Source of the DNA: Vulcanimicrobiota bacterium
GTDB taxonomy: Bacteria; Pseudomonadota; Gammaproteobacteria; Xanthomonadales; Rhodanobacteraceae
DNA: 64,000 bases
Assembly (NCBI GenBank): GCA_903970555.1
Contig: CAJCJD010000022.1
Location: 1 to 64,000 of the forward strand
Reading direction: 5' to 3'
In this document: piece by piece, positions 19,783 to 56,201 of the stretch
Layout: the number at the start of each line of letters is the position of its first letter
How positions within the stretch are numbered: position 1 is the first letter of the stretch
Notes under the pieces: generated by a model
Seen by the model: only the letters and a program-made list of their open reading frames with translations
Database searches by the model: none
What the model was told of the DNA's origin: nothing
Made by a program: the position numbers and the translations under genes

Positions 19783-19891
19783 TGCCTTGACCCCACCCGG
19801 TGCGCACCGCAGCATAGGGGCAACCCGAGCCTTCGTCGCCGTGCTCTCGAATCAACGCTTGGGTATTCGGCGATGTCACTGGATGAGCGTC

Positions 19892-21316
19892 ATGGCCGAA
19901 CCCGAGGCAATGTCCCTGCGTCACCTTCCTGCGGTAGCCGCCGTGCTGGCGACGGCCGAGGCGGCGTTGCTGCTGGAACGCCACGGACGCATTGTCACCA
20001 CCGACGCCATTCGCCAGGTGATCGACGACACACGCGAGATTTTGCGCAGCACTAGCGCCGTGGCTCCCAGCGCCATCGACGTGGCGCAACGTGCAAGGGA
20101 TCTGCTGGAAGCGCGCGCACCAGGTCTGCGTGCGCTGTTCAATCTCACCGGCACCGTGCTGCACACCAATCTGGGCCGCGCGATGCTGGCTGAAGCCGCG
20201 ATCGAAGCGGCGGTGGAGGCGATGCGTCACCCAGTGGCGCTGGAATACGACCTCGCCGGCGGCACGCGTGGCGAACGCGACGATCATCTGCGCAGCCTGC
20301 TCTGCGAATTGACCGGTGCGCAAGACGCCACCGTGGTCAACAACAACGCGGCGGCCGTGCTGCTTTGCCTCAACACGTTCGCGCTCGGGCGCGAGGCTGT
20401 GGTATCGCGTGGCGAGCTGATTGAGATCGGCGGCGCCTTCCGCATGCCCGACATCATGGCGCGGGCCGGCGCACGCATGGTCGAAGTGGGCACCACTAAC
20501 CGCACTCATCCTGCCGATTATCACGACGCTCTCAACGAACGCACCGGCCTCGTGCTCAAGGTGCACACCTCGAACTACCGTATCCAAGGCTTTACTGCGG
20601 AAGTCGGCGCGCGCGAATTGGCCGCTATCGCCGATGCAGCTGGTGTGCCGCTGCTCAACGACCTGGGCTCCGGCAGCCTTGTCGATCTGTCTCGCTACGG
20701 GCTCGCCAAGGAGCCCACCGTGCGCGAAGCTGTAGCCGAGGGTGCGCGGCTGGTCACCTTTTCCGGCGACAAGCTGTTGGGCGGTCCGCAGGCTGGCTTC
20801 ATCGTCGGAGACCACGCGCTGATCGAGCAGATCAATCGCAATCCCCTCAAGCGCGCGCTGCGCGTGGATAAGCTTCGCCTCGCCGCGATCGAGGCCACGC
20901 TAAACCTCTACCGCGATCCCGATCGTCTCACCGAACGTCTGCCCACGCTGTACTTCCTGACACGCGTTAAAGCTGACATCGAAACGCAAGCGCGCCGCCT
21001 GCAGCCGACGGTTGCCGAGCGGTTCGGAGATGCGTTCGTGGTCGAGGTTGGTGAATGCCTCAGCCAAGTCGGTTCCGGCGCGCTGCCATTGGATACCCTC
21101 GCCAGTGCCGCGCTGGTGATTCGCGCGCGCAACAGCCAGAGTACGTTGCAGCGATTGGTCGCCGCGTTGCGCATGCTGCCGCGGCCGATCATCGGCCGGG
21201 TCGCCGATGGCTCGCTGCATTTGGATTTGCGTTGTTTGGTCGAGGCGGACGAATCACTGTTCCTAACGTCACTGGCCCAGCTCGACGTCGACGGCGTGGT
21301 TGCTGCCGACCCATGA
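19892..21316 (+). CDS. selA: L-seryl-tRNA(Sec) selenium transferase
   Basis: PLP enzyme that converts Ser-tRNA(Sec) to Sec-tRNA(Sec) using selenophosphate. The 474-aa product aligns by eye with E. coli SelA throughout: LPAV near the N-terminus, NLTGTVLHTNLGRAML, EYDLAGG, VNNNAAAVLL, SRGELIEIGGAFR, EVGTTNRTH, HTSNY-IQGF, LGSGSLVDLS, and SFSGDKLLGGPQAG with the PLP lysine. The ATG at 19892 is preferred because it leaves eight residues before the conserved start; 19883 and 19910 are possible. The last four bases overlap the selB start (ATGA), so the two are translationally coupled. Confidence 0.95.
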   Translation: MAEPEAMSLRHLPAVAAVLATAEAALLLERHGRIVTTDAIRQVIDDTREILRSTSAVAPSAIDVAQRARDLLEARAPGLRALFNLTGTVLHTNLGRAMLAEAAIEAAVEAMRHPVALEYDLAGGTRGERDDHLRSLLCELTGAQDATVVNNNAAAVLLCLNTFALGREAVVSRGELIEIGGAFRMPDIMARAGARMVEVGTTNRTHPADYHDALNERTGLVLKVHTSNYRIQGFTAEVGARELAAIADAAGVPLLNDLGSGSLVDLSRYGLAKEPTVREAVAEGARLVTFSGDKLLGGPQAGFIVGDHALIEQINRNPLKRALRVDKLRLAAIEATLNLYRDPDRLTERLPTLYFLTRVKADIETQARRLQPTVAERFGDAFVVEVGECLSQVGSGALPLDTLASAALVIRARNSQSTLQRLVAALRMLPRPIIGRVADGSLHLDLRCLVEADESLFLTSLAQLDVDGVVAADP

Positions 21317-23304
21317 TTGTCGGCACCGCCGGTCATATCGATCATGGCAAGACGGCGCTGGTCAAGGCCTTGACCGGCGTCGATGGCGATCGCCTGAAAG
21401 AAGAAAAAGCGCGCGGCATCACCATCGACCTGGGCTTTGCTTATCTGCCATTGGAAGACGGCTCGGTGGTTGGCTTTATCGATGTGCCCGGACATGAGCG
21501 CTTCGTGCACACCATGCTGGCTGGCGCCAGCGGCATCGATGTTGCGTTGTTGGTGGTGGCGGCCGACGACGGCGTGATGCCGCAAACCCTGGAACATCTG
21601 GCGATCCTGGATCTGTTGCACGTCCAGCGAGGCGTGATCGCGCTAACCAAGGTCGATCTGGCGACGCCCGAACGCTTGGCCGAAGTGCGCGCGCAGATCC
21701 GCGAAGCCACCGCAAACAGCATGCTCAAGGACGCCGACATTCTGCCAGTTTCCTCGACCACCGGCCTGGGTGTCGACGCGCTGCGCGATCGGCTCGCCGT
21801 CGAGGCACGCACGCTCGGCGCGCGAGTCGCCGAGGGGCGATTTCGCCTCGCAGTCGATCGCGTGTTCACGCTGTCCGGCATCGGCGTGGTGGTGACGGGC
21901 ACCGTGCTGTCCGGGGTGGTAAACATCAAGGATCAGGTGCTGATTAGTCCTTCGGGATTAGCGGCACGCGTGCGTTCGATGCATGCGCAGAATCGCGCGG
22001 TAGAGAGTGGCAGGGCGGGGGACCGTTGCGCACTCAACCTCGCCGGCGAAGCCATCACCAAGGATGCGATCCATCGCGGAGATATGGTCGTCGATCCTTT
22101 TCTGCACGAGCCGACCGATCGTATCGACGCGCGCTTGCATCTCTTGCCCAGCGAATCCAGGCCAATCGGCCAATGGTTTCCGGCGCGTCTGCACCATGCA
22201 GCCGTCGAGGTTGGTGCGCGCATCGTATTGCTTGAAGGCGAACAATTGCTGCCCGGACATACGGCGGATATCCAATTGGTGCTAAGCCGGCCGATCGCCG
22301 CTGCGGCACTTGACCGCTTCGTGCTGCGCGACGTTTCCGCCCAGCGCACGATAGGCGGCGGCCAGTTCCTCGACCTGCGTGCACCTTCGCGCCAGCGCCG
22401 CACTGCCGAGCGCGAGGCAGTGCGCGCTGCGCTCTCCATCATCGATCCACAGCAAGCCTTCGCCGCGTTGCTTCAGACGTCGCCGTTCGCGTGGGATCTC
22501 TCGGCATTTACACGAGATCGTGCACTCTCTGCGGCCAAACGCGATGAAATCACCGCAGCACTGTCGCCGGTCGTCTTCGATATCGGCGAGCAACGCACTG
22601 CGATCAACCAGGCGCATTGGCAACGCTTCGTTACTGCCGTGATCGAATGTCTTGAAATGTTCCACGCGACCAACCCCGACCTGCAAGGCATGGGCCGGGA
22701 GAAGCTGCGGTTGGCATTGCAACCCAGGCTGCCTCCTCATGTCTTCGCGCTAGCCCTGCAGCACGAAGACCTTGCTGGACGCGTCGTTCGCGATGGTGCC
22801 TTTGTACGCCTTGCTAGCCACGCCCTGCAGTTGAGCCCGGAGCGCGCGGTGTTATGGCAGGCGATCACCCCGTTACTTGGCGGTGATATCCGCTTCCGCC
22901 CACCGCGGGTGCGCGATATCGCGCAAGTGCTTGGGCGTCCGGAGCAAGAGATCAGAGATCTGATGAAATTCGCGGCACGGCTGGGCCTGGCCGATGAGGT
23001 AGCGCACGACCATTTTTTTCTGCGCACCACCATGCACGAAATGGTACTTATCGCCGCCGACATCGCCGCGCATGCGGCTGACGGTCGGTTTACCGCGGCA
23101 CAGTTCCGCGACAGTCTCGACAATGGTCGAAAGGTCGCGATCCAGATACTGGAGTTTTTTGATCGGCAAGGCGTTACGCTCAACCGCGGCACCTTGCGTA
23201 GAATCCGGTCGGAATATCTCGATTTGTTTGGTCCGGCTGCGACCGCGTTGCATGATGGAAGAGAATCGTCCCCGGTGGGGCGTCCGGACTTCAAATCCGG
23301 GTGA
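21313..23304 (+). CDS. selB: Selenocysteine-specific elongation factor SelB
   Basis: EF-Tu-like GTPase that carries Sec-tRNA(Sec) to UGA codons by binding the SECIS. The 663-aa product begins with the G1 loop [13 protein letters not shown], followed by G2 GITIDLGF, G3 DVPGHE and G4 LTKVD. Two beta-barrel domains follow, then a C-terminal series of winged helices that bind SECIS RNA (about 380-640). The ATG at 21313 overlaps the selA stop; the frame stays open upstream inside selA, but the G1 position fixes the start. The last 16 codons ([15 protein letters not shown]) are encoded by the tRNA-Sec gene itself: the CDS ends with TGA at 23302-23304, 48 bases inside selC. Confidence 0.95.
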
Positions 23305-23352
23305 GGCAGTCAGACTGTCTCGGGTGGGTTCGACTCCCACTCTCTTCCGCCA
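23257..23352 (+). tRNA. selC: tRNA-Sec, anticodon TCA
   Basis: A 96-nt tRNA with encoded CCA. The 8-bp acceptor stem GGAAGAGA/TCTCTTCC is perfect and followed by discriminator G. The anticodon arm is CCGGA-CTTCAAA-TCCGG with anticodon TCA at 23291-23293. There is a long variable arm (GAGGCAGT...ACTGTCTC) and a T-arm GTGGG-TTCGACT-CCCAC. The 8+5 acceptor/T-stem architecture, long extra arm and TCA anticodon are diagnostic of bacterial selenocysteine tRNA. Its first 48 bases overlap the 3' end of selB. Its 3' end is the probable integration site of the island that follows. Confidence 0.97.
23338..23352 (+). other. Putative attL core (3' end of selC)
   Basis: CACTCTCTTCCGCCA forms the T-arm/acceptor 3' end of tRNA-Sec. 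A copy lacking one T is at the other end of the island. Tyrosine integrases of the P4 type use exactly this part of tRNA genes. Confidence 0.6.
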
Positions 23353-23852: not shown

Positions 23853-26213
23853 ATGAGTTTGACTAAAAAGGACAGTCTGCACTTCGATGTCAGCACGGGC
23901 CTCAAGCGTGTGCTGGGTCGCGAGCTCATTACCGATGACGAGGTCGCGATCTTCGAACTCGTCAAGAATTCTTTCGACGCCAGCGCGGACAGTGTGCAGC
24001 TTTACTTCGGTGACGGCATGATCGTCATCGCGGACAACGGCTCCGGCATGACCTATGAAGATCTGACGAACAAATGGTTGTTTGTTGCTTACTCGTCCAA
24101 GCGCGTAGACGGCTCCGCAGATGACTTCCGCAACATCGCCGCCGAGCGCCGCCACTATGCAGGAAGCAAGGGTATAGGCCGCTTCTCATCTGATCGCCTG
24201 GGAGAGGAGGTCATCATACAAAGCCGCCCTCAGGGCCGTGCCAAGGCCGTCCATCGGCTGACCGTCGATTGGGAGCTATTCGAGAAGGACGCAAAGGAGC
24301 ATTTCGAGAACGTTCCCGTCCGCTACGCGGAAGAAGACGCGTTCCAACTTCCGCGCGAGCTACGCAAGTTCGAGTCGACGCTTAAGCATGGCACTGCGAT
24401 CACTATCCAACGGCTGAGACGGCCATGGCCGCGACAGCGCATCCTGAATTTGAAGGCGTCGCTAGCCAAGTTGATCAACCCGTTTGGAGAGGAGACCGAC
24501 GGCTTTGGCATTCACATCACAGCACCGGCCGAGGCAGCAGAAGACAAGCGGCTCATCGCCTTGCATGCCAAGGAAGGCGAGAAGCCGCTGCCTAAGGATC
24601 TAGTCAACGGCCAGATCGGCAATTTCATCTTCAGCACACTGCAGGACAAGACGACGTTCATTCGGGTGACCATCGACGCTAAGGAGCTGCACACGACGCT
24701 TACGGACCGTGGTGAGGTCATTTACCGCATTGCCGAACCGAACCCGTACGAGCGTCTGGCGTCGGCCGAGTTTAAGTGCGAGATCTATTATCTCAACCAA
24801 TCAGCGAAGGCCACGTTCACTCGGCGTGTGGGCTTACCGTCTGTGCAGTTCGGATCAGTTTTCCTTTTTAGGAACAACTTCCGCGTCTACCCGATCGGCG
24901 AAGACGGGAATGACTGGTTCGGCTTCGATCGCCGCAAACAGCAAGGCTATGCACGCTTTCTGGGCACTCGCGAAATTATTGGACGCGTTGACGTATCCGG
25001 GTCGGATGAAGACTTTCAGGAAGCATCAAGCCGCAACCAAGGTCTGATCGAAACACCCGCGGTCGAGCAGTTGCACAAAGCAGTGATGGAGCATTGCCTA
25101 AAGCGATTGGAAAAGTACGTCGTCCCGGTATCTTGGACCGACAAGGCCGATGCGAACACCGACGACCTTTCTCGCCTGATGACGGACCCGGGACGCGCAC
25201 GTGTGTCCTCGGCGGTCGCCAACCTCGTAGATAACGACAAGGTGCGTTTGATCGAGTACAGCAAGCGGCTCGTTGACCTGATCAACGAGCGCTCCAGCGA
25301 TTTTGAGACATCCCTGGTCAGTCTGCGCGCGATTGCCGAGAAAACGAACGACAAGAAGTTGCTTGCTAAGCTCGATGCAGCCGAACGTCGCTTCGACGAT
25401 CTCAAGAAATCTGAAGCAGATGCACGGCGCGTGGCAGACAAGGCGCTGGCAGTAGCCGAAGCCGCAAACCAGCGCGCAGCCACGGCAGAAGCAGAGGTGG
25501 AAACGGAGCGGCGGCGCGCGCACTTCCTGGAATCCTTCGTCACAGTGGATGCCGCCACGATCCTGAACCTTCATCATCAGGTAACGATCTATGCCGTCGA
25601 CATCGCACAGCAGATCGAGAACTTTCTGATCGAGACTGCCGGAAAGACATCGATTCCGCGCGAAACTGTTCTCAAGACGCTGGAGCAGATGGCCTTCCTC
25701 AACAGGAAGGTCATGTCGGTGACGAAGTTCGCGGCGAAAGCGAACTTCAAGTTGGACTCCGAAAAGATCGAGACCGACCTCGCCTCGTTCATCTACGACT
25801 ACATCGAACAGATTGCCCGTACCACAGGCAGCGCGCGACTGCAGATCACGGCCGAGAACGAGCACCCTGGCATAAAGCTGCGCTTCAACCCGATTGACGC
25901 GTCGATCATTGTTGACAACCTGATCAGCAACGCGAGGAAGGCCAAGGCGTCTCGCATCAAGTTCGTCCTGACGCAGGAGGACAAGAACAGCCTAACAATC
26001 CATGTGAGTGACAACGGCCGCGGTCTGGCCCCCGGCACAAACCGCTCGCGTATTTTTGAGATGGGCTATACAACCACGCAAGGCTCAGGCCTCGGCCTCT
26101 ATCATGTTCGGCAGGCCCTCGGAGAAATGGGGGGCAGCATCGAACTCGACGATCAAGTGGAAAAGGGCCTGGGACTCATTATTAAGATCGCCGCGAAGGG
26201 GAGAAGCGCGTGA
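23853..26213 (+). CDS. Dual GHKL ATPase / histidine-kinase-like protein (candidate defence sensor)
   Basis: No named family is recognised for the whole protein. The 786 aa show two complete Bergerat ATP sites. The N-terminal one is of Hsp90/MORC/MutL style: ELVKNSFDA (N39, D42), DNGSGM (61-66) and GSKGIGRF (104-111), followed by an S5-like region ending about residue 400 (FRVYP, 343-347; ASSRNQGLIE, 391-400). Next come a helical linker and a coiled coil (about 495-565), then a helical hairpin with LNLHHQ (H574/H575) resembling a kinase dimerisation domain, and a second ATPase: DNLISNARKA (N689, N693), DNGRGL (720-725) and GSGLGLYHV (744-752). There is no signal peptide or membrane segment, so it is cytosolic. 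The ATG at 23853 has GGGAG immediately before it; TTG at 23859 has better spacing. It overlaps the receiver gene by four bases. The role in phage defence is inference from architecture and neighbours. Confidence 0.75.
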   Translation: MSLTKKDSLHFDVSTGLKRVLGRELITDDEVAIFELVKNSFDASADSVQLYFGDGMIVIADNGSGMTYEDLTNKWLFVAYSSKRVDGSADDFRNIAAERRHYAGSKGIGRFSSDRLGEEVIIQSRPQGRAKAVHRLTVDWELFEKDAKEHFENVPVRYAEEDAFQLPRELRKFESTLKHGTAITIQRLRRPWPRQRILNLKASLAKLINPFGEETDGFGIHITAPAEAAEDKRLIALHAKEGEKPLPKDLVNGQIGNFIFSTLQDKTTFIRVTIDAKELHTTLTDRGEVIYRIAEPNPYERLASAEFKCEIYYLNQSAKATFTRRVGLPSVQFGSVFLFRNNFRVYPIGEDGNDWFGFDRRKQQGYARFLGTREIIGRVDVSGSDEDFQEASSRNQGLIETPAVEQLHKAVMEHCLKRLEKYVVPVSWTDKADANTDDLSRLMTDPGRARVSSAVANLVDNDKVRLIEYSKRLVDLINERSSDFETSLVSLRAIAEKTNDKKLLAKLDAAERRFDDLKKSEADARRVADKALAVAEAANQRAATAEAEVETERRRAHFLESFVTVDAATILNLHHQVTIYAVDIAQQIENFLIETAGKTSIPRETVLKTLEQMAFLNRKVMSVTKFAAKANFKLDSEKIETDLASFIYDYIEQIARTTGSARLQITAENEHPGIKLRFNPIDASIIVDNLISNARKAKASRIKFVLTQEDKNSLTIHVSDNGRGLAPGTNRSRIFEMGYTTTQGSGLGLYHVRQALGEMGGSIELDDQVEKGLGLIIKIAAKGRSA

Positions 26214-27133
26214 GGCTCGATTTCAACGTGCTGTGGGTGGATGACCAACCCGACAGAGTTGCCGCGCAGATCAAGAGGATCGCGTTGCGAATGGCTGACG
26301 AGGGTTTCGAATTCAAGCCCCGACAATGCATTACGATTGAGGAGATGGAACAAGCTATTTCCGATGACGTTTTCACAGACGAGGTAGACCTTATCCTAGT
26401 GGATTGGGATCTTGGCAAAGACGTTCATGGCGAGGACGCGATCGAGCGTATCCGTCAGATTGTCCAGTACAAGGATGTGGTCTTCTATTCTGGGCAGGCG
26501 ACAGTTATCGAGTTGCGGCAGAAGGCCTTCGACAAGAAATTGGAGGGGATCTATTGCGCCAGTCGCGATGATCTGGTCGAAGAGGTGGTCGGCGTCTTCG
26601 ACTCCCTCATTAAAAAGGTTCTCGACCTCGATCACACTCGCGGCATCGTCATGGGCGCCACCAGCGATATTGACCACATGGTTAATACTTGTCTGACACT
26701 GGCGCACGACAAGCTCGATGGCGAGGGTAAAGCCAAATTTATCAAGGAAGCACTGACGCGCGTGGCGGAACAGGTGCAGAGTCTCACCAAGTTAGGCGAG
26801 AAGCTCCGGTCCGCGCCGAGCGTTGAAGCTCTATTCAAAGCGCACATACTTTTCACGTCGGACCATCGCCTGCGCATGCTAGCGAGCATCTTAGCTATGG
26901 ATGAGTTCGCGACGCACTCAACTGGTGTGGCGACTGTCAAATCGTATCGCGATGGCGTTGTTAGTAACCGCAACACTCTCGGGCATGCTGTCTTGGTTCC
27001 TCAAGGTAAGCCTAGCAGCGTCGTCGATGACGCCGGCAAGGTTGTCGACATCGCCCAGATGCGCGAGCTTCGCAAATTGATTTTGAGCTTACGTGCGGAT
27101 TTCCGCGCTTTGCTGGACGCCATGCAGGCGTGA
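26210..27133 (+). CDS. Receiver-domain protein with helical, HEPN-like C-terminus
   Basis: The likely partner of the GHKL protein, whose stop it overlaps (GTGA; start at 26210). The N-terminal 125 aa form a response-regulator receiver fold: acidic pair D11/D12 (WVDDQ), likely phospho-acceptor D65 (LVDWDL), and S94 in the switch position (VFYSG). The usual conserved Lys after strand 5 is not evident (IYCASRDD). The C-terminal half (about 130-307) is predominantly helical with no DNA-binding wing or HTH that I can recognise. It contains R254-N-T-L-G-H259, which fits the R-x4-H motif (polar residue after Arg) of HEPN ribonucleases. The 3' end overlaps the convergent methyltransferase gene by 45 bases. 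An effector RNase controlled by the receiver is an inference; it could also be a non-catalytic signalling domain. Confidence 0.65.
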   Translation: MRLDFNVLWVDDQPDRVAAQIKRIALRMADEGFEFKPRQCITIEEMEQAISDDVFTDEVDLILVDWDLGKDVHGEDAIERIRQIVQYKDVVFYSGQATVIELRQKAFDKKLEGIYCASRDDLVEEVVGVFDSLIKKVLDLDHTRGIVMGATSDIDHMVNTCLTLAHDKLDGEGKAKFIKEALTRVAEQVQSLTKLGEKLRSAPSVEALFKAHILFTSDHRLRMLASILAMDEFATHSTGVATVKSYRDGVVSNRNTLGHAVLVPQGKPSSVVDDAGKVVDIAQMRELRKLILSLRADFRALLDAMQA

Positions 27134-28393
27134 GTGCACTTTGCGGTCGCGTTCGGCCGCAACCGTGTGCTTGGTCCTAAGCAGATCCGCCAGAGCCTCG
27201 CCGATCGCGCGTGCGACTAGCGGCGGCACTGCGTTAGCCACTTGCGTGAAGCGAGGCACTTCTTGCCTGCGAAGGTGACCGCCGGTCGTGTACTTACCCT
27301 GGAAGGAGTACCAGTCAGGGAAAGTCTGTAGCCGCGCGTTCTCCCGAACCGTCAATGTGCGTGGCTCCGAATAGTGAAGCAGATCGTCGGGCATGCTCGT
27401 GATCGTCGGCGACGGGCGATCAGGATCGAGCACACGCAGAGCCAGTTTCTTGAGCCCGAAGCGCGCCCGCATTTCAGCCCCAATGCTGACATTCAGACGG
27501 CCTTTGGCGTGGCTCAGCTTAATGATCTCCTTGAAGCGGCGTGCAATGTCGTCGGCGTGACGCGCCAGACGTAGGTCGGCGGGAACTTTGCACCCTGCAT
27601 TCATCAGCTTTTGGTAACGAGTGAGCGGACCGGCGTAACGGGTTTCCTCGAAGCCCTTGCTCTCCGTTGATGGCTGCGTGCCGCTTCGACCAACCTCAAG
27701 ATCAGAAATCGCCGCTTCCGACGAGACCGGGGCTGTCAGACGCAGGGAACGTAAGAATGAGGGAAGGCGACTTTGCAGGTGTACGAAGGGGTTCGGTACA
27801 TTCAATTCAGAGCGGAAAGCGAGAACGAAGTAGCGTGTGCGCGCCTGTGGCACGCCGAAGATGGATAGATCGAGCAACTGCTCATGGACCGTATACGCGT
27901 CAGACAGTCTCGTTTTGAGTGCCTGCGAAAAATTCTTAATCTCCTCGCCGGCGCTGAAATCGAGCGTGAAGCCTCGGACGTTCTCGATCAAGACCGCTTT
28001 TGGCTTGATGATGTCGACCAAGTTCAAATAAGAGGCAAACAGCTGATTGCGGGGATCATCGTGCTTGCGTCGCCCCGCGCTGGAAAAGCCTTGGCACGGT
28101 GGCCCGCCGACTAGCACGTCTATGCTTCCGGAGATTTCTTCGAGCTGTTCTCGATAGTTGCTCAGAAGCTCGACGATGCCGATCGGTTCTTTTGGGAGCC
28201 ACCGTGGCCAGACGTACTTGTGCGGCGAACCCTTCGCCAACAGGTTTGCCTTGAGCGTGGCGAATGCGAACTTGTCGCGCTCGATCGCAAAGCGGCCAGT
28301 CCAGCCAGCCTGCATTAACCCTAGGGAAAGACCACCGCACCCAGCGAAGGCGTCGATAAAAGTCAGTGGCTTAGTGGAAGTTCGCGGCATCAT
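27089..28393 (-). CDS. DNA (cytosine-5) methyltransferase
   Basis: Methylates cytosine at C5 in a target sequence that cannot be read from the protein. The 434 aa contain the ordered C5-MTase motifs: I (DAFAGCGGLSLG, about residue 14), IV (GGPPCQGFSSAG, catalytic Cys), VI (ENVRGF), VIII (QARTRYFV) and X (QVANAVPPLVARAIGEAL). The variable target-recognition region lies between about 200 and 340. The start is 28393 or the adjacent ATG at 28390. It converges on the receiver gene, with a 45-base 3' overlap. No restriction endonuclease gene adjoins it, so it is either an orphan or the modification arm of an unusual system with the GHKL/receiver pair. Confidence 0.93.
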   Translation of the reverse strand: MMPRTSTKPLTFIDAFAGCGGLSLGLMQAGWTGRFAIERDKFAFATLKANLLAKGSPHKYVWPRWLPKEPIGIVELLSNYREQLEEISGSIDVLVGGPPCQGFSSAGRRKHDDPRNQLFASYLNLVDIIKPKAVLIENVRGFTLDFSAGEEIKNFSQALKTRLSDAYTVHEQLLDLSIFGVPQARTRYFVLAFRSELNVPNPFVHLQSRLPSFLRSLRLTAPVSSEAAISDLEVGRSGTQPSTESKGFEETRYAGPLTRYQKLMNAGCKVPADLRLARHADDIARRFKEIIKLSHAKGRLNVSIGAEMRARFGLKKLALRVLDPDRPSPTITSMPDDLLHYSEPRTLTVRENARLQTFPDWYSFQGKYTTGGHLRRQEVPRFTQVANAVPPLVARAIGEALADLLRTKHTVAAERDRKVHSRLHGVQQSAEIRT

Positions 28394-30161: not shown

Positions 30162-31761
30162 GAGGCTGTGTGGAAACGCAAAACTCCTAGCCAAGCGCAG
30201 CGTTGTGTCGTTGCTTCATCCTGTCAGAACCCGTTAGCAAGAAACAACGAAGGCTTAGGCCATGATGGCTTGCATCAGCGGCCTCACTCCTATGATCTTC
30301 ATCACCCGCTTCATGTTGTAAGCCAATACATGCAAGCTCATTTCCGTGGCGACCTTGGGTAGCGTTCGCATGAGGAAGTGCGTGGCGCCCATCCAGGCCT
30401 TCAGTGTGCCGAACGTATGCTCGACCGTCTGGCGCCGCACACGCATCGCTTCGGGACGTTCGTCCAGTCTGCTCTGCAAGCTCTCCAGTGTCGACTCATG
30501 CTCCCACCGCCGAATGCGTCGATAACGCTCCGTCGTGCATTGAGATCGCAACGGACAGGCGGGGCATGCCGATGACCCGTACACGTGGATCGTCATGCCA
30601 TCTTCGATAGTGCTCATGCGCCGCGGTGCGCGCTCACCGGCTGGGCACTGATACGCATCGTGGTCAGCTTCATAGCGAAAGTCGCGTTTGTCGAAACGCC
30701 CCTTCGCTTTGCTGTTGGAGGTCAACGGCTGGGGTACCAGCGGTGTGATACCCGCTTGTTCGCAAGCCCGTAGTTCCTCGCCCTTGTAGTAACCGCGATC
30801 GGCCAAGGCGATCAGCGTGTCCTGGTCCATAGCTTCCTGGGCTCGCGTGGCCATGGCGCTCAGTTGATGGCGGTCATGGCCCGCGTTCGTCACGGCGTGC
30901 GCGACGATGAGGTGGTGCGTGGCATCTACCGCCGCTTGCACGTTGTAACCCACGATGCCGGAGCCACAGCCGTGGGTCGCCATGGCACGCGCATCGGGAT
31001 CGGTCAGCGATACCTGCTTGGTCAGGAGTCTCCCGCATCACCTTGCCTAGCGCGTTCAGTTGCTGCACCTGTTCGCGCACCGTGGTGAGCTTCAGCGTCA
31101 GGTGCTTGACCCGAACCTCCGGCAGTCGGCCGGGTTCGCGGTCGGCACGATCCAGTTCAGCCAGATACCGCGCCACGCTCGATTCCAGTGGTTCCAGTCG
31201 TGCCTTGAGCTTGGCTTGCGTGAGGTTCTTGTCCCGGCCATTGACGGCCTTGAACTTACTGCCGTCGATGGCCACCACCGCATCGGTGAACAGCTTCATC
31301 TGCCGGCATGGCAGCACGAAGTGGCTGCACACGCGACGGATGGCAGCGCTGTTGTCCTTACGGAAATCGGCGACCGTCTTGAAGTCCGGCATGCAGCGAC
31401 CGGTCAGCCAGATCAGTTCGACATGGCGCTGGGCTTCTCGCTCCAGTCGTCGACTGGACTGCACGCGATTGAGGTAGCCATAGATGTAGATCTTGAGCAG
31501 CGTGGCGGGATGGTAAGCAGGACGCCCCGTGACGGCAGGCCCCACGCCCGCAAAACCCAGTTCGCGAAGATCCAGCTCGTCCACGAACACATCGATGACC
31601 CGAACGGGATGATCGTCGTCTATATAGTCGTCCAGTCGTTCGGGAAACAACACACTCTGGGATCGATCAGCACCTTCGACGAATCGCTTCATGCAAGACT
31701 CCATCGACTGACTGGGTCTAGGATAGTGGCGCTGCGTTGCGGAGTGTTTTCACACAGCCTC
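30162..31761 (-). mobile_element. Insertion sequence, IS1182-family type, 1.6 kb
   Basis: The boundaries are set by terminal inverted repeats GAGGCTGTGTG-n-AAAC (left end from 30162, right end read inward from 31761) and a 4-base direct repeat GGTC on each side (30158-30161 and 31762-31765). It holds one transposase gene on the minus strand, now frameshifted. Size, gene layout and transposase sequence match the IS1182 group. Confidence 0.85.
30255..31704 (-). pseudogene. IS1182-type DDE transposase, frameshifted
   Basis: The transposase begins at 31704 (MESCMKRFVEGADRSQ...) with the N-terminal DUF772-like domain (DDHPVRVIDVFVDELDL, then GRPAYHPATLLKIYIYGYLN), followed by AIDGSKFKAVN with the first catalytic Asp. 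Near 31021 the frame is lost: an extra C in GACCAAGCAG turns ETPD-KQVSLTDPDARAMATHG into nonsense. The correct frame continues at 30983 (GIVGYNVQAAVD, LADRGYYKGEEL with Asp, and TVEHTFGTLKAWMG with the final Glu) to the stop at 30255. All catalytic segments are present, so a single base disables it, unless the shift is a sequencing error or is programmed. Confidence 0.88.
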
Positions 31762-31877
31762 GGTCGGAAGCGGCCGCTATCCGCAGCACTCTCTCAACAA
31801 CCTTAAACACGGCCCATCAGTTCCCGGCACCGGCCCTGACGTACCATAGGGGCTCCACAGCAGGGACAGGGGATCCC

Positions 31878-32921
31878 ATGGAACTTCTCACCGAAGACGG
31901 TGACATTGCCAAGCGGATCCATGCCCTCAAGCCGACGCACATCGCTACGGCATACATCGGTCTGGACTGGCATCGCTACGTGGATGCCGCAGTGCTGGAA
32001 TCCGTTGTCCTTTCGCCCACCGTGGGCTCGAACCCGAAAGCCATCTGCCAACTGATAAAGGCCATTGGCTTTGACCGTGTCCACTTCCTGGACCACCTGC
32101 ACGCTAAGTTCTATTGGTCGCCTGAGGCAGCTGTGCTGGGAAGCAGCAATCTCTCCAACAACGGGCTCCAGGGATCCAGGGGTCTGGTGGAGGCCGCAGT
32201 CGCCATTAACCCCGCGCATGAAGCACAGGCGCACGCGGATCTCAAGTTGATGCATGAGCGCATCGAGGCAAAGGCTCGGAAGCGCTACAAGACCGAAGAC
32301 GCGAAGTGGGCCCAGGTGAAGGACCTGGAAAAGCAATTGGAGCGGTTGAACCGCGCCAATGGAAAGGCTTTGCTCCGTCCCACGGAGAAGCACATCACCG
32401 GCACGCCACTATCGGTGTTTACGTACGCACCCCAGCAGCAGCACATCCACATCATCGGGTGGTGCGAAGAACTGGCGCAGGACAGCCAGAAGGTCAAGCA
32501 GGGCATGCTCGATCAATCCTCGGAGCGAATTGCTTATGCCCTGGAGCACTACGTTGGTGTCCGCAATCACGACCCCTTGAACGTGGATGATTGGGTCCTT
32601 TTCTGGGAAACCACCGCGGACGGGTTGGAACCCAAGCCCCGTGGCGCGATTGAGTGGATGCGCATTGATTACGTTCTGCACGACACCAGTAAATCCAAGA
32701 TCTGGCGGAAGATCGGATATGAAGTCTATGCGCGCGAACCGCACCAGATGCCCTTCGCTCTGGATGGCGCGGCCAAGAAAGCGTTCCGCAAACTGCTGCG
32801 TAGCGGAATGTTCGACGAGATGTATCTGGCCACCGATGCGAAGGGCTGGTCGTTGGAACGCGCCGATGCGAAGGTTGAACAGTTCCTGGATGTTCTCAAG
32901 AGCATCGCCGCAAGCACATAA
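31878..32921 (+). CDS. Phospholipase D-like (HKD) nuclease family protein
   Basis: Predicted cytosolic phosphodiesterase or nuclease of the PLD superfamily, 347 aa. The start at 31878 has AGGGG six bases upstream. The N-terminal half contains the active-site signature HAKFY followed by LGSSNLSNNGLQGSRGLVEAAV (about residues 77-110), the single-HKD arrangement seen in dimeric PLD nucleases such as BfiI-type restriction enzymes. A coiled segment follows (about 120-165, KARKRYKTEDAKWAQVKDLEK). The C-terminal half (about 170-347) is not recognised. It stands alone, 116 bases after the insertion sequence, without a methyltransferase partner. A defence role is possible but not shown; it could be a repair or general nuclease. 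Confidence 0.7.
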   Translation: MELLTEDGDIAKRIHALKPTHIATAYIGLDWHRYVDAAVLESVVLSPTVGSNPKAICQLIKAIGFDRVHFLDHLHAKFYWSPEAAVLGSSNLSNNGLQGSRGLVEAAVAINPAHEAQAHADLKLMHERIEAKARKRYKTEDAKWAQVKDLEKQLERLNRANGKALLRPTEKHITGTPLSVFTYAPQQQHIHIIGWCEELAQDSQKVKQGMLDQSSERIAYALEHYVGVRNHDPLNVDDWVLFWETTADGLEPKPRGAIEWMRIDYVLHDTSKSKIWRKIGYEVYAREPHQMPFALDGAAKKAFRKLLRSGMFDEMYLATDAKGWSLERADAKVEQFLDVLKSIAAST

Positions 32922-40306: not shown

Positions 40307-40582
40307 GTGTTCCCTCATCAGAAAATGCGCTACCCCTGTGAATGAACTGCAGTCAGTCCATTCGTCTTCACACGCTTTAGCGGCGCCATTAAAGCCTATT
40401 GAACGCCCGTGTGACTAGTGGGGCTTTCTTCACAAAATCGTCATGCAGTTTTGTGATGGTATATAGCGTGAAGAGCTCGCAAGGCTGTTGATCGCTGTGC
40501 GGGTAAGGGGCGCCCCATTGCAGGGCATCACGCGTGACATCAAGTCGGCCGTTCATGATCGAATGGCATAAGGGACGTGCGT

Positions 40583-43500
40583 ATGGAGTCGCAGCGCAAC
40601 GGAGTAATTCGGAGCCACATTCGTCGATTCGGCATGAAGCGACGGAGCCCCTCAGGACGGCAACTCGTCGTCTGGGCGGTGTGGCTGCTTTGCACCGCGA
40701 TGCTTTGGGCCGGTCTGGTCCAAGCGCAATCCACCCATTACGTCTACGACGCGAACGGTCGCGTGGTCGCGGTGACCACGGCTAATGGGACCAGTGTTCA
40801 ATACAGCTACGACACGCTGGGCCATGCCAGCCAGATCAGCGCGCCGCTCTCGTCCGGGCAGATGGCCATCTTCGCCTTCATGCCGACCCACGGTGAGGCG
40901 GGTGCACAGGTCACGATTCAAGGACAAGGCTTCGATAGCAATGCAGCGAATGACACGGTGAGCTTCAACGGCACCGTAGCCACGGTGCTTTCCGCCACCG
41001 CGGCGCAACTGGTGACGACAGTGCCGAGCGGCGCTACAACCGGGCCGATCAGCGTGACGGCGGACGGCCAGTCGGCTACCAGTGCTACGCCGTTCGTGAT
41101 CGATGATACCGGCGTACCGCCCAGTATTACTCAGGTCAGTCCTGCGGTTGTATCGGTTGGCAGTCTAGTGACCGTCACAGGTGCAAATCTGGATCCGGTG
41201 TCGGGCGATACCAGCGTACAGATGGGTAATCGCGATATCACCGCATTGTCCTCGATCACCGATACCCAGTTGCAATACACCGTGCCCAGTGATGGTACCA
41301 GTGGCTATGTTACCGCCGAGACGCCTTATGGCCTGGCGACCAGTCCCGCGCCTATCGTTGTGCTACCCAGCAGTATTAGCGCGAGCAGCGTTGTCAGCAG
41401 TGGTAACGCCGTCGTCAATGGGGCGAGTGTCAATCTAAATATCAGCGCCTCTGGCCAATACGGCGCGGTAACGTTCGTCGCGACCCAAGGGGGATGGGTA
41501 AGTCTGCAAGCCAGCGCCATCACCACGACGGCCAGCAGCATCAGCTATACGGTGTATGGGCCCGGTAACGCGGTGGTCCAACAAGGCAGCATCTCGGCTT
41601 CCTCGCCATCGATTCATTTGCCGCAATTGGTGGCCGGTGCCACCTACTTCGCACTCTTTCAACCGAGTGGCGCGGGTGTGCAAATGACCGTGGGCGTGCA
41701 AAGCAACGCGCTGCTCAGCACTAATGTAGCCGCGACCGTAGTCACGACCGTTGCGGGGGCTAGTGAGCGTGTGCTGTTCCAGGCGACGGCGGGCCAGAAT
41801 CTGGCGTTCCAGATCAACAGCACCACCACCAATCCATCCGGTCACACCGTGACCTATACGGTCTACACGCCGAGCGGATCGAGCTATACCAGTGGTACCA
41901 CCGCAAGCACTGGGGTGATCAATCTCGGCAACATGCCGACGGCCGGCACTTACCAGGTGATCATCGCTCCCGGCAGTGGGGTGACAGGAACCATGCAGGT
42001 GGAAGTCACACTTGGTGTGACGGGAACCTTGAATGGTACGCCGCAAAACTACAAGGCCAATGTCGCTGGCCAGAATATCTACTTGTCGTTTACCGCCACG
42101 CAAGGTGAGAGCCTTGAGTTAACCCTCAATGGCGTCAATGACGCGGGCGGGACATATAACCAATTCCTGGTGTACGTCTACAACGCGGCAGGTGCACAGG
42201 TAACCTCGTTCTGGTGCTATGCCTCCAATCCTGGAGCAAGTTGCAATCAGCATCTGTGGTATCTGCCGGCGGGCACGTATTCGGTAGTCGCAACGCCGTA
42301 CTACGGAGGCGTACTCAGCTTCACGGCATTGCTCGAACAGGATCTGACGGGCGGGACCATTCCGGTCAACGGAACGGCGAGCGTCGCCTTGGCCGCTGGT
42401 CAAGTGGAGCGGTACTCGTTTAATGCCAACGCGGGCGACACGGTTGCGCTGAACGTTTCGGGCGTAACGACCACGCCAACCGGTCAGGGAGTGGTCTTCC
42501 TGGTGTATCGCCCGGATGCCGGTGCCATTACCACGAGTACGCCGGCCTATACATCGTTTACGCCCACTAGCTCGCAGACCGTGAACCTACCGAATTTGCC
42601 GGTGAGCGGTACCTACACGGTGATCGTGGCGCCAAATTACGGGCTGGCCGCAAGCGCGCAGTTGAGTGTGGTGGGAGGCGTGACGGCAACGCTGCCGGCC
42701 AATGGCAGTTCGCAAAGCTATAGCAGCAATGTCACCGGCCAGAATGTCTACCTGTCGTTTACAGCAACCCAAGGTGAGAACCTGGAACTGGTGCTCAACA
42801 ACGTCAATGCTGCGGGCGCCACCTATAACCAGTTTATCGTCTACGTCTACAACGCCGCCGGCTCGCAGGTCGCTTCGTTCTGGTGCTACGCATCCAATCC
42901 GGGCAAGAGCTGCAACCAGCATTTGTGGTACCTGCCTGCGGGTACGTATTCGGTGGTTGCTACACCGACCTACGGGGGAGTGCTCAGCTTCAATGCATTG
43001 CTCCAACCAGATATTGTCGGATCTGCGCTGACTGACAACAGCCCAACGAGCATTTCGCTAGGTGCCGGTCAGGTTGAACGCTATACGTTCAATGCGAATG
43101 CTGGCGACACCATTGCATTGAATGTGTCAGGGGTGACCACCACGCCGACGGGTCAAGGCGTGACCTTTCAGGTCTACCGGCCGGATGCCGGTGCCATTAC
43201 CACGAGCACGGCGACTTACACTTCGTTCGCGCCTGCCGGCTCGCAGACGGTGAATTTGCCAGACCTGCCCGTAAGCGGTGCGTACACCGTCATCGTGTCG
43301 CCGAATTACGGTCTCGCCGCGAGCGCGCAATTGAATGTGGTATCTGGATCTATCGGCAGTTTGTCGACGAATGGAGCGTCGCAAAGCTATACCGCCAACA
43401 CCACCGGCGAGAATGTCTACCTGTCGTTTACAGCAATCCAAGGTGAGAACCTGGAACTGGTGCTCAACAACGTCAATGATGCAGGTGCTCAGTACAACCA

Positions 43501-46500
43501 ATTCCTGGTGTACGTCTATAACGCCGCAGGCGGACAGGTGGCATCGTTCTGGTGCTATGCCTCCAATCCTGGGGCAAGTTGCAATCAGCACTTGTGGGAT
43601 CTTGCAGCCGGTACGTATTCGGTGGTCGTCACGCCGACTTACGGCGGTGTGCTCAGCTTCAATGCATTGCTTCAACCAGATATTGTCGGATCTGCGCTGA
43701 CCGACAACAGCCCAACGAGCATTTCGCTAGGTGCCGGTCAGGTTGAACGCTATACGTTCAATGCGAATGCTGGCGACACCATTGCATTGAATGTGTCAGG
43801 CGTGACCACCACACCCACCGGCCAGGGCGTGAGCTTCCAGGTCTACCGGCCGGATGCGGGTGTCATCACGACGGCTACGTCGACCTACACGTCGTTTGCC
43901 CCGACCGCCTCGCAGACTGTGAATCTGTCGAATCTGCCCGTCAGTGGTACGTACACGGTCATCGTGGCGCCGAACTACGGTCTTGCTGCGAATGCTCAGT
44001 TGAATGTGGTGTCCGGGTCCACCGGTACACTATCGACCAGCGGAACGCCGCAAAGTTATAGCGCCAATGTCGCCGGTGAGAATGTCTATCTATCATTCAA
44101 TGCCACGCAGGGACAAAATCTTGAGCTGGTACTGAACGGCGTCAATGATGCGGGGGCTCAGTACAACCAATTCCTGGTGTACGTCTATAATGCCGCGGGC
44201 GCACAGGTCGCATCGTTCTGGTGCTATGCCTCCAATCCCGGGGCGAGTTGCAATCAGCACCTGTGGGATCTCGCAGCCGGCACGTATTCGGTGGTCGCGA
44301 CACCGACTTACGGCGGCGTCATCAGCTTCAATGCGTTAGTCCAGCCAGATATCGTTGGTTCGGCGCTAACAGATAACAGCCCTCTAAGCATTTCACTGGG
44401 CGCGGGTCAGGTTGAACGTTACACCTTCAATGCGAATACAGGCGACACGATCGCCCTGAGCGTGACGGCCGTGACCACCACGCCTGCCGGCCAAGGCATC
44501 ACCTTCGCGGTTTACCGGCCGGATGCGGGTGTCATCACGACAGGCACATCGGCCTACACCTCGTTCGCTCCGACGAGTTCGCAGACGGTGAATCTTGCGA
44601 ACCTGCCCGTGGGCGGCACCTACACGGTCATTGTTTCACCCAACTACGGTCTGGCCGGCAGCGCTCAGTTGAATGTGGTATCCGGCGCGACGGGCACGCT
44701 GTCGACAGGCGGGACATCGCAACGCTATAGCGCCAACACGGCCGGCGAGAACGTCTATCTGTCATTCAATGCCACGCAGGGACAAAACCTCGAACTGACG
44801 TTGAACAACGTCAACGATGTAGGTGCCCAGTACAACCAGTTCCTGGTCTACGTCTATAACGCCGCAGGTGCACAGGTAGCATCGTTCTGGTGCTATGCCT
44901 CCAACCCAGGGGCCAGTTGCAGCCAGCATCTGTGGAACCTTGCGGCGGGTCAGTACTCGGTCATCGCCGACCCCAATTACGGCGGCGTCATCAGCTTCAA
45001 TGCGCTGATCGAGCCGGACATCACCGGATCGTCGATCGCATCAGGCAATAACGTCAGCATTTCCCTGAACGCGGGTCAGGTGGAGCGTTACACCTTCAGC
45101 GCAAATGCAAGCGATACGGTGACCCTTGCGGCATCCGCTATCGCCACGACGCCAACAGGGCAAGGCGTGACGTTTACGGTCTATCGCCCCGATGCAGGCG
45201 TCATTACCACGAGTACCTCTGCCTACTCGTCTTTCGGACCAAGCAGCGCGCAAACCGTCACGCTCTCCAACTTGCCAATAAGCGGAACCTATACGGTCAT
45301 TGTGGCTCCCAACTACGGGTTGCCTGCCAATGCACAGCTAAGCATGCAGGACACGGCAGGTGCGCCACCCACCTATACAACCACGCCGACACTTTCCGAC
45401 ACGGGTGCATCGGTGAGCGAAAGTGCATCGGCGGCAGGCAGTAACGTAAGCATGACGTTCAACGCCAATTCCGGTGACAACCTGGAATTGCAGTTGAATA
45501 ACGTGAGCGCGTCAGGAGGCAACGTCAACGGCTTCCGGGTCGATGTATATGATCCCTCTGGCGCGGATGTGACCTGGAGTTATTGCTACGCCTCTAATCC
45601 AGGTGCGGCTTGCCGTTTTGCGCTGTGGAACCTCAGGCCGGGTACCTATTCGGTCGTCGCAACACCGACCTGGGGCGGCACGATCAGCTTTAGTGCACAG
45701 GTGCAAGCCGACATCTCCGGCCCATCGCTCAGCGCTAATACGCCAGCCACGGTAACGCTGGGTACCGGGCAAGTGGAGCGACTCACCTTCAGCGCCAATC
45801 AGGGCGATACGGTCGCGCTGAACCTGTCGGGCGTAAGCACGACGTCACCCACCGGACAGGGGGTGTACGTAAATGTCTACCGTCCCGACGTCGGATTGAT
45901 CAGTACCAGTAACTACTACACGTATTTCAGCGAGACAGGTTCGGGAACGCTCAATTTGCAGAACCTGCCGGTCGGCGGCACCTACACCGTGGTGGTGTAT
46001 ACGAATGACGGCACGCCAGGGACCGCACAGCTGACTCTGGTTCCGGGCTCGACCGGAGCGGTAGCGACCAACGGCACAGCGCAGAGCTTCGCGACCCAGG
46101 CGTCGGGCGAAAATGCCTACTTCAGTTTCAACGCAAATCTCGGCGACAACCTGGAGTTGGAGCTGAGCAATATCAGCGTGACCGGCGCCACCAATAATGG
46201 TTTCCGCGTCGACGTATACAGTGCCAATGGCACCGACGTTTCCGGTACCTACTGCTACACCTCAAATCCTGGAGCGAGTTGTCGCTTTGCGCTCTGGAAC
46301 CTGGCGGCTGGCACGTATTCAGTGGTGGTGACGCCGACCTGGGGCGGAACGATCAGCTTCAATGCACAGCTTCAGAGTGATGTGGTGGGCCCATCGCTAA
46401 CGTCAAACACGCCTACGACGGTGACACTCGGTAGCGGACAAGTTCAGCGTCTTACCTTCAACGCCAATCTTGGCGACACGGTGGCGCTCAACTTGTCCGG

Positions 46501-54109: not shown

Positions 54110-54156
54110 GAGTGGTGTTGGCACAACTTGTTCTCACTGTGTAAAAGGCCAGTGCA

Positions 54157-55001: not shown

Positions 55002-56201
55002 TTAGCCTGACGTAACGTGGTCCGCCCAGGCTTGCATCAGTGGCCGTCGTTGCTCAAGCAGGTCAGTGCGGTGGTAGGCCGCCTCCACTTTGTTCTGCAC
55101 GGCATGCGCCAAGGCTCGCTCTGCCAGATCACGCGAGTAGCCTTTCTCGCTGCACCAGTCACGGAAGCTGGATCGAAAGCCGTGCGCGGTGGCGGTGCGT
55201 CCCACCACATCGCTAACAGCCCCAACGCGCCGCAACAGCGCCGTCAACGCCATATCCGACAACGGGGCGCGGTCACGCACGGAGGGGAAGACCAGCGTGT
55301 CGTGCTGACCACGTTGGTGCTTGAGAATTGCTACGGCCGGTTTCGACAGTGGTACGCGGTGGATCTGCTTCGCCTTCATGCGTTCCGCCGGCACCGTCCA
55401 GAGCTTGCTGTCCAGGTCCACCTCACTCCAAGTCATGTGCCGAACTTCACCAGAGCGAGCGGCAGTCAGGATCAGGAACGCCAACACCTGCCGGGACACA
55501 TCGAAGCTATGCGGCAGTTGCAGATGCTCGACAGCAAACTCGGGAATGAGAGACCAGGGCATAGCCGGCTGATGCTGCGTGCGAACCGTTTTGCCGGGTT
55601 GCAATGGTAAGAGGTGCCCGACCACATCGACCGGGTTGGATTGGCAGAAACCGTGCGCCCAGCCCCAGGCCATTACGGCATGCAACCGCTGCTTCACCCG
55701 TCCCGACGTTTCGGCCTTCGCTAACCAGATAGGCCGCAGCACGTCGGCAATGTGGCGGGGCTGGATTTGATCCAAGGGCATCGCGCCGATCAAGGGAAAG
55801 GCGTACTCGGTGAGTGTATTGATCCACTGTTGAGCATGCTTCGCGTTCTTCCAGCCAGGTGCAAGCTCTTTGTGCAAAGTCTCTGCTGCATTGCGCAGAG
55901 AGGGGATGCTTGGTTTGGCAGCTTCGTTCGCTTTGACCTCTAGCGGGTCTTGTCCGTGGGCGATCTGCTCACGCATGAAGCGAGCTTGTCGTGCCGCTTC
56001 TGCTAGACCGACGTCGGGGTAGCTGCCTAGCCCTGCGTTGCGACGCTTCTTGGTGATGGGGCTTACATAGCGGAGAACCCACTTGCCTTGCCCCTTCTGG
56101 CTGGGAGATGGATGAAGTGTCAGCCCGGTAATTCCGCCATGTGCAAGCGGAGTGCTTCCAGGTTTGACACTGCGCGCTTTGGTATCAGTGAGCAAAGCCA
56201 T
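55002..56201 (-). CDS. P4-type tyrosine integrase
   Basis: 399 aa site-specific recombinase that would integrate the island at a tRNA gene. The N-terminal DUF4102 arm-binding domain is clear (MALLTDTKARSVKPGSTPLA, then YVSPITKKRRNAGLGSYPDV and LAEAARQARFMREQI). The core-binding and catalytic domains follow, with the active-site residues: Arg in TAARSGEVRHMTWSEVD (about 245), Lys in MKAKQIHRVPLS, HGFRSSFRDW (His-x-x-Arg), and His in ERALAHAVQNKVEAAYHRTD with the nucleophile Tyr in AAYHR. All appear intact. It starts next to the arm-type motif at 56228-56246 and lies about 180 bases from the putative attR. Confidence 0.95.
   Translation of the reverse strand: MALLTDTKARSVKPGSTPLAHGGITGLTLHPSPSQKGQGKWVLRYVSPITKKRRNAGLGSYPDVGLAEAARQARFMREQIAHGQDPLEVKANEAAKPSIPSLRNAAETLHKELAPGWKNAKHAQQWINTLTEYAFPLIGAMPLDQIQPRHIADVLRPIWLAKAETSGRVKQRLHAVMAWGWAHGFCQSNPVDVVGHLLPLQPGKTVRTQHQPAMPWSLIPEFAVEHLQLPHSFDVSRQVLAFLILTAARSGEVRHMTWSEVDLDSKLWTVPAERMKAKQIHRVPLSKPAVAILKHQRGQHDTLVFPSVRDRAPLSDMALTALLRRVGAVSDVVGRTATAHGFRSSFRDWCSEKGYSRDLAERALAHAVQNKVEAAYHRTDLLEQRRPLMQAWADHVTSG

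Follow-up and report, generated by a model that had tools for sequence, protein, structure and literature searches.

A MORC-type sensor kinase, a receiver with a HEPN-like end and a C5 methylase as a putative phosphorelay module against invading DNA

What do a histidine kinase, a receiver protein and a C5-cytosine DNA methylase do together when their genes overlap on one short piece of bacterial DNA? This question is raised by a locus of a bacterium deposited as Vulcanimicrobiota bacterium and placed by GTDB in the Rhodanobacteraceae. The locus occupies positions 23,853 to 28,393 of the window, i.e., the whole stretch of 64,000 nucleotides of contig CAJCJD010000022.1 that was analysed; the window is part of contig C22 of a draft genome that is 91.7% complete and 3.4% contaminated. 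A preliminary description of this DNA, made from the letters alone, took the three genes for a candidate new defence module. We interpret them as a restriction-modification-like (R-M-like) system against invaders, in which the 'restriction' arm would be a phosphorelay that ends in a putative HEPN ribonuclease, and of this interpretation, which rests on sequence comparison, we are about half persuaded.

The statement of the preliminary description that no system with this exact set had been described does not hold, as paraMORC-type histidine kinase/receiver pairs have been predicted beside C5 methylases before (Bellieny-Rabelo 2021; PMC8011034, here and below in its available text). The claim to a new system is therefore reduced to that of a branch: the pair of the window is a separate branch of the published paraMORC-kinase/receiver theme, with a HEPN-type output. 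The general gene set was predicted before, and it is the RNA-cutting branch that seems to be new.

A recurring set of three genes

The three open reading frames of the module have the coordinates earlier described (23853-26213 and 26210-27133 on the forward strand, 27089-28393 on the reverse strand), and the overlaps of 4 and 45 bases noted at that time are exact. The features of the module are as follows (E, expectation value).

23853..26213, forward strand: sensor kinase of 786 residues, a fusion of a MORC-type ATPase and a histidine kinase
23940..24332, forward strand: N-terminal GHKL/MORC-like ATPase domain of the kinase, residues 30-160 (PF13589 HATPase_c_3, E 2.1e-24)
25575..25577, forward strand: H575, probable phosphoacceptor histidine (LHHQ), invariant in 18 of 18 kinases
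25899..26180, forward strand: C-terminal histidine-kinase ATPase domain, residues 683-776 (PF02518 HATPase_c, E 1.5e-21)
26210..26213, forward strand: 4-base overlap of the kinase stop and the GTG start of the receiver gene
26210..27133, forward strand: receiver protein of 307 residues (GTG start), receiver domain plus HEPN-like effector
26402..26404, forward strand: D65, phosphoacceptor aspartate of the receiver, invariant in 20 of 20
26615..27130, forward strand: C-terminal domain of the receiver, residues 136-307, mostly helical in models, HEPN-like
26969..26986, forward strand: R254-N255-T-L257-G-H259, HEPN Rx4H motif (R, N and H in 20 of 20, L257 in 19 of 20)
27089..27133: 45-base convergent 3' overlap of the receiver and methylase genes
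27089..28393, reverse strand: C5-cytosine DNA methylase of 434 residues (PF00145, E 7e-54), the only PF00145 match in the draft genome

In total, 20 members of this set were collected, namely the window, L002-L006, L012/L065, L018, L019, L024, L025 and L036-L044, with repeated finds counted once (L033-L035 lie on the same contigs as L018/L019, and L020-L022 are the window, L024 and L025). A receiver scan of genomes led to five loci, L002-L006, from Aeromonas lusitana, a Paucimonas metagenome-assembled genome (MAG), Achromobacter, a Pseudoxanthomonas MAG and an Acidobacteria MAG. All five carry kinase, receiver and convergent methylase, and the Acidobacteria copy is 50% (receiver) and 69% (kinase) identical to the window's proteins. 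Besides the window, whole-genome searches returned one locus in 274 genomes of the class and two clear loci in 398 genomes of the phylum; L023 of phylum genome G322 (E 7e-4 over the 35 residues 51-85) was kept out of the set. From the IMG/VR collection, the receiver alignment retrieved L018 and L019, and the kinase alignment retrieved 11 loci, two of them on already known contigs. The remaining nine all have a motif-bearing receiver of 301-317 residues after the kinase, though only the kinase had been queried. Searches with the receiver through 72,556 plasmid and 50,697 phage records gave no match. The kinase gave four partial matches in the phage records and matched 94 plasmid records, among them five at 80-90% identity; the examination covered five of the others. 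A distant blastn search with the kinase-receiver stretch of L002 gave no E. coli match.

The genes of the set are linked. The 4-base overlap of kinase and receiver genes is present in 12 of the 17 loci listed, and the convergent 3' overlap in nine of the 10 convergent loci listed. Of the 20 loci, 19 have a C5 methylase next to the pair or in its operon; the remaining one, L042, ends at a contig edge. The methylase is convergent with the receiver in 11 loci (window, L002-L006, L018, L024, L037, L039, L043), tandem upstream in five (L019, L025, L036, L041, L044), divergent upstream in two (L038, L040) and the first gene of a longer operon in one (L012/L065). For comparison, 56 genomes of the class include 14 with any PF00145 match at all, and the genome of the window is one of these 14. 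Because the set recurs in distant lineages against this baseline, it is more than a chance association. Moreover, the pairwise distances of kinase, receiver and methylase correlate across the 16 loci in which all three are usable (Mantel 0.955, 0.819 and 0.844, each reached by 0/5000 permutations). The methylase thus stands as a real partner, and homologues of the pair are not found mostly without it. Its best PADLOC model is PDLC03234 (E 9.6e-78), and, in agreement with the preliminary description, no restriction enzyme was recognised with Pfam and PADLOC among the neighbouring open reading frames of the window that were searched.

The surroundings of other members are consistent with a mobile defence gene set. 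L002 directly adjoins Tn7-like transposition genes (TnsC/TniB, TniQ/TnsD), L003 lies behind type I R-M genes (T1R, N6_Mtase, Methylase_S), L025 has an integrase-like open reading frame nearby (recognised by eye), and in L038 a Vsr gene adjoins the methylase. Together with the Dpt-like neighbours of L012/L065 (see below), these settings bear out the view of a defence-like module.

Mobile settings of this kind can also be explained by an addiction module, in which methylation holds off a toxin made up of the kinase and the receiver-HEPN protein, and cells that lose the element and its methylase die. The module would then stabilise mobile elements instead of, or besides, fighting phage, which makes this explanation compatible with an anti-invader function. 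It draws on the members that lie on viral contigs or beside Tn7-like genes, on the methylase near the pair in nearly every locus, and on R-M systems that are known to act in this way (PMC8011034). However, a kinase with two ATPase engines would be needless for addiction, and the type I R-M and Dpt-like neighbours point to defence; we consider addiction unlikely as the explanation.

The relay and the C-terminal domain of the receiver

Two complete Bergerat ATP sites had been described in the kinase, and both are confirmed. Among the 18 usable kinases (all but that of L024, at a contig edge, and the interrupted one of L044), the residues of the N-terminal site (E35, N39, D61, G63, G65, G104/107/109) and of the C-terminal site (N689, N693, D720, G722, G724, G744/746/748) are invariant, and so is H575, which is absent from the preliminary description. 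The long stretch between the two ATPase domains is probably helical, with a coiled coil judged by eye. In L044 (6007-9990), the kinase gene is broken by an apparent transposase gene, recognised by eye, and the methylase and receiver genes look intact.

On the receiver side, the acidic pair D/E11 and D12, together with D65 and S/T94, is kept in 20/20 members. The AlphaFold2 model (mean predicted local distance difference test 79.1, predicted template modelling score 0.68) has a receiver fold followed by helices, and its best PDB matches in Foldseek are response regulators, from E 1.4e-6. Since H575, the ATP sites and the receiver residues are kept and the genes are coupled, phosphotransfer from H575 to D65 is likely, if unproven, and the kinase-receiver coupling proposed earlier gains support from the frequent 4-base overlap and these relay residues. 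Pfam scans of the receivers gave no DNA-binding output domain over cut-off, for which reason a DNA-binding response regulator was rejected as a candidate; the C-terminus, previously called helical and non-DNA-binding, is predicted to be helical in the AlphaFold2 models. In PADLOC scans of seven of the 20 receivers, six had no match at E<=1 and L006 had one at E 0.021.

What, then, could the output of this relay be? All 20 members carry the sequence R-N-x-[LF]-[AG]-H near the receiver end, within the short C-terminal domain. HEPN domains are described as metal-independent ribonucleases that leave a 2',3'-cyclic phosphate, and their signature is Rx4-6H with a polar residue after the arginine, at the end of helix 3 and before helix 4 (PMC3710099, here and below in its available text). 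The AlphaFold2 models place the motif at a helix end before the last helix, an order that matches HEPN. Among the first 11 members, 26 receiver columns are invariant, and beyond residue 156 these are only R254, N255, L257, H259 and R288. In the 14 members from L018 on, the domain is 14-34% identical to that of the window, and R, N and H are still invariant. The strict motif occurs in 1/2000 shuffled receivers and in 0/8 receivers of other kinase/receiver pairs (the PF19192 proteins L009-L011 and the plasmid pairs L013-L017); among the latter, the R-to-H spacing is looser in L010 and L011, and L014 has RHTLNH.

Seven PF18735 HEPN proteins, including L050 (L051-L053 and L055, below cut-off, were left out), have the motifs RNKIAH, RGDIAH, RNEIAH or RNDLAH. 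With gap-trimmed alignments, HHalign aligns the receivers to these proteins on the motif with a score of 21.4, at a probability of 3%; this score is reached by 0/250 template and 0/250 query column shuffles, and the values for decoys are 14.0 and 14.2. In an earlier untrimmed comparison, 5/200 template and 0/200 query shuffles came at or above the observed value; the top values of the template shuffles, approximately 132, resemble gap-column artefacts. HEPN-type Pfam families gave weak matches in one of the 20 members each: HEPN_RiboL-PSP (3.1e-4), HEPN_MAE_28990 (2.4e-3), HEPN_Apea (6.3e-3) and Abi_2 (0.094). Furthermore, a HAD_PNKP gene directly follows the receiver, over cut-off, in L019 (8900-9355), L025 (10838-11278) and L036 (9380-9832), three members that are distant from each other. 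These genes were spotted by eye and confirmed by a Pfam scan that covered these three of the 20 loci. Because HAD_PNKP is an end-repair phosphatase, such neighbours fit an RNA-cutting effector. The earlier suggestion of a HEPN-like receiver end is strengthened by the motif, with weak profile matches; the predicted structure agrees with it in helicity and in the placing of the motif but has no PDB match in Foldseek.

Several observations weigh against a phosphorelay that ends in a HEPN ribonuclease. The receiver of the window has no match to Response_reg (PF00072) at E<=0.1, and Arg119 stands where receivers usually have a lysine (R in 19/20, with one alignment gap). The C-terminal domain of the window matched no HEPN model at E<=1, its model found no PDB match better than E 1.0 in Foldseek, and the HEPN_RiboL-PSP match of L018 is under cut-off (19.9 vs 28.4 bits). 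The HHalign probability is only 3-5%, the match being mostly the motif itself. PEP-utilisers_N was matched by 4/20 C-terminal halves (best E 0.0049), i.e., by more than any HEPN family. As to sampling, the IMG/VR loci (L018, L019, L036-L044) are viral by choice of collection and, as several members are close relatives, the 20 loci amount to an estimated ten or so lineages. The PEP-utilisers_N match was taken as a helical look-alike and rejected. When alignment A4 was run as a profile against the sequences of PDB chains, 15 matches came up, at E 0.027 or worse, with no HEPN among them; they are mostly designed helical proteins, ferritins and ATP-synthase stalk chains.

The lack of a PDB fold match and the weak profile scores are what would be expected if the C-terminal domain were a helical binding module with no nuclease, and the receiver worked by protein contact. 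The invariance of R, N and H in a domain so divergent, however, and the HAD_PNKP neighbours speak against a mere binding surface, and we regard this explanation as rather improbable. Still less probable, in our view, is that the pair forms a signalling cascade which tunes the expression of the methylase or of restriction genes, as has been suggested for the published pairs (PMC8011034). Its kinase-receiver logic and R-M neighbourhood would suit such a regulator, but the receivers have an invariant ribonuclease-type motif in place of a DNA-binding output domain over the Pfam cut-off, and no restriction enzyme was recognised beside the module of the window.

Known systems and related gene orders

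The closest published relatives are the predicted HEF_HK/Response_reg_2 pairs (PF19191/PF19192). Their kinases consist of HATPase_c_3, an H-box and HATPase_c and are related to paraMORCs; in 644 regions, kinase-like and receiver-like genes are linked in 91.6%, and C5 methylases and Vsr are frequent (PMC8011034). The window shares with them the cytosolic kinase with N-terminal HATPase_c_3, H-box and C-terminal HATPase_c, the adjacent receiver gene and the nearby C5 methylase, and the known pair is also enriched for R-M genes and Vsr. In contrast to them, the kinase of the window has an HHQ box and no HEF_HK match at E<=0.1, whereas the same model matches the L009 kinase at E 6.3e-28. Response_reg_2 in the receiver of the window remains sub-threshold (16.5 bits vs a cut-off of 27, residues 54-88 only), and a PF19192 search of the window's own genome gave no match. 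Full membership was rejected, as the pair fails both domain models. The three Response_reg_2 proteins compared, L009-L011, have 555-617 residues with a long C-terminal part and lie beside kinases of 435-439 residues without the N-terminal MORC domain, unlike the 307-residue receiver with its HEPN-like end. Whether the pair matches an already named system is thus answered in two parts: it matches no system named in PADLOC in the seven receivers scanned, and it does resemble the published class.

Likenesses to other systems are partial. Residues 21-224 of the kinase match the model of the BbrUII/HgiDII MORC-ATPase restriction enzymes (NF050001, E 8e-26), whose partners M.HgiDII and M.BbrUII are 5-methylcytosine methylases (PMC5867850, available text). 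However, the match ends at about residue 224, far under cut-off (90.7 bits vs 550), and the C-terminal half of the kinase is a histidine kinase. With the HEPN ribonucleases PrrC, RloC and the paraMORC-Ymh fusions, the receiver shares the Rx4H motif, the asparagine after the arginine and, by prediction, a helical domain. Fusions of certain HEPN domains with paraMORC ATPases are known from R-M loci, but the available text of PMC3710099 has no receiver fusion, whereas the HEPN-like domain of the window is part of a receiver, and phosphotransfer would control it.

Detocs, likewise a phage defence system with a histidine kinase and a receiver-effector, consists of a TPR sensor kinase, a distinct buffer receiver and an effector that cleaves ATP (DtcABC). 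By this definition the window differs, with no TPR or nucleosidase family in Pfam and no PADLOC match of its receiver. Likeness to Dnd/Dpt (DndFGH-like) systems is confined to the distant member L012/L065, which shares an operon with DndH-like, ATPase and 515-residue genes behind a C5 methylase; no Dnd/Dpt gene was recognised among the open reading frames of the window that were searched (20 with Pfam, four with PADLOC).

MORC/paraMORC ATPases were placed in R-M operons in 2008 (PMC2292703, available text), and VcSduA, with a paraMORC3-like domain order, defends against phage and requires its GHKL site (PMC12137116, available text). The available parts of PMC12839542 and PMC11229360 describe no such pair, and no description of a receiver-HEPN pair with a C5 methylase was found in the literature searched, as judged mostly by titles and abstract openings. 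HATPase and REC appear in the legend of a DefensePredictor figure, as part of a list of eight predicted systems (PMC13092281); the accompanying text gives no description of the system concerned, and overlap with the module of the window is possible. The idea of a general stress sensor, in which the kinase senses DNA damage, supercoiling or nucleotide levels, the HEPN domain slows growth and the methylase is a fellow traveller, can appeal to ATP binding by GHKL ATPases and to the nucleoside triphosphate sensing speculated on in PMC8011034, but is very improbable given the methylase linkage in four gene orders and the correlated distances.

Related methylases lead to further gene orders. In L012/L065 (genome G137), a C5 methylase 32% identical to the window's is followed on one strand by a 713-residue ATPase-like protein, a 515-residue protein, a DndH-like ATPase of 1833 residues, the kinase and the receiver. 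Among plasmids, 3935 records match the window methylase, and seven of the best were examined. The closest four of these methylases (approximately 45% identity) come from Rhizobium, Shinella, Sinorhizobium and Pseudoalteromonas. On the plasmids of the first three genera, the methylase is followed by relatives of the 702-residue protein of L056, of the 515-residue protein (40% identity) and of the 1833-residue ATPase, the last in its N-terminal part (22-23%). In Pseudoalteromonas, the large ATPase is 38% identical to that of L012 and itself matches DndH at 5.5e-66; it comes after annotated proteins of comparable sizes, and the methylase closes the series. The other three plasmids have different methylase neighbours, e.g., an LlaJI restriction enzyme.

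These loci outline a DptFGH-like set tied to cytosine methylation, not phosphorothioation, in L056, L057, L059 and L063 (the Rhizobium, Shinella and Sinorhizobium plasmids), L058/L064 (Pseudoalteromonas) and L065/L012. It consists of a C5 methylase, a protein of 677-713 residues, one of approximately 503-515 residues and a DndH-like or related ATPase of 1623-1833 residues; in Rhizobium a Vsr gene follows the ATPase. The 677-713-residue protein has a P-loop by eye and no Pfam or PADLOC match where scanned.

Other plasmids carry variants of the kinase/receiver arrangement. The Stenotrophomonas rhizophila plasmid L013 (4742-10107) has a C5 methylase, a MORC-kinase, a 212-residue receiver-like frame without the motif, an unassigned 226-residue frame and a SIR2-family gene, i.e., this kind of sensor combined with another output. 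The Campylobacter armoricus plasmid L017 (5998-10448) has a kinase, a 340-residue response regulator and a convergent C5 methylase, which is the layout of the window without the HEPN motif; 27 Campylobacter plasmid records match the kinase.

Genomic setting and proposed mode of action

In the window, the order is selA, selB, tRNA-Sec, approximately 500 bases, the three-gene module, approximately 27 kb, a tyrosine integrase and selD.

19787-23352: selA, selB and tRNA-Sec, flanking the accessory stretch on the module side
23257..23352, forward strand: tRNA-Sec gene, just upstream of the module and after selA/selB; left edge of the accessory stretch
55002..56201, reverse strand: tyrosine integrase at the far end, adjoining selD
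56410-57531: selD, far flank of the accessory stretch

In 12/12 genomes of the same genus (G657-G668), the best selD match was no better than E 1.8e-6, compared with 4.8e-248 for the gene of the window, and the neighbourhood of the module therefore looks accessory. The module has a G+C content of 56.6%; that of the sel genes is 63.3%, and that of positions 28394-55000 is 56.4%. A second copy of the tRNA-Sec 3' end was looked for and not found, and the limits of the island are only inferred because no copy of the tRNA end marks the far boundary. The selD/integrase context, with the Tn7-like element and the viral contigs of other members, upholds the earlier view of accessory or mobile settings. 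A promoter/terminator scan gave counts lower than the shuffle means.

Further genes of this stretch were noted in passing. A transposase spans two overlapping reading frames at 30255-31704 (DUF772 and DDE_Tnp_1 parts) and is probably frameshifted. Beyond it from the module lies a PLD-like protein (31737-32921; weak PF13091 match, E 0.076); none of the fetched loci has a relative of it at E<=1e-3. Positions 40577-54681 hold a 2716-residue repeat protein (by eye), a 1790-residue RHS-repeat protein and then a small open reading frame, and resemble a polymorphic-protein cluster.

For the anti-invader system we propose a mechanism that is more specific than that of the preliminary description; its phosphorelay chemistry is deduced from the invariant residues. 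The C5 methylase would mark host DNA as self, and the MORC-like N-terminal ATPase of the kinase may engage invading, probably unmodified, DNA or a DNA-bound complex. Such sensing would lead the kinase to autophosphorylate at H575 through its C-terminal ATPase, and the phosphoryl group would pass to D65 of the receiver, whose phosphorylation would free the C-terminal HEPN-like domain. We infer that this domain cuts host or viral RNA through R254, N255 and H259 and thereby stops growth, as in abortive infection, or phage replication. Where HAD_PNKP follows the receiver, it may mend the resulting RNA ends.

As the plasmid and G137 gene orders indicate, methylases of related type accompany DptFGH-like genes, the kinase/receiver pair or both, and for this reason the 'restriction arms' would be interchangeable. 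We suggest, with a conviction that falls a little short of even, a mode of R-M in which methylation is the mark of self, foreign DNA is not cut but reported by His-Asp phosphotransfer to an RNA-cutting HEPN ribonuclease, and such arms can replace one another. If this is true, an R-M-like immune system would be set off by two-component signalling and act through an effector that cuts RNA, and MORC-type ATPases in bacterial R-M loci, as well as the published paraMORC-kinase/receiver pairs, would gain a testable role.

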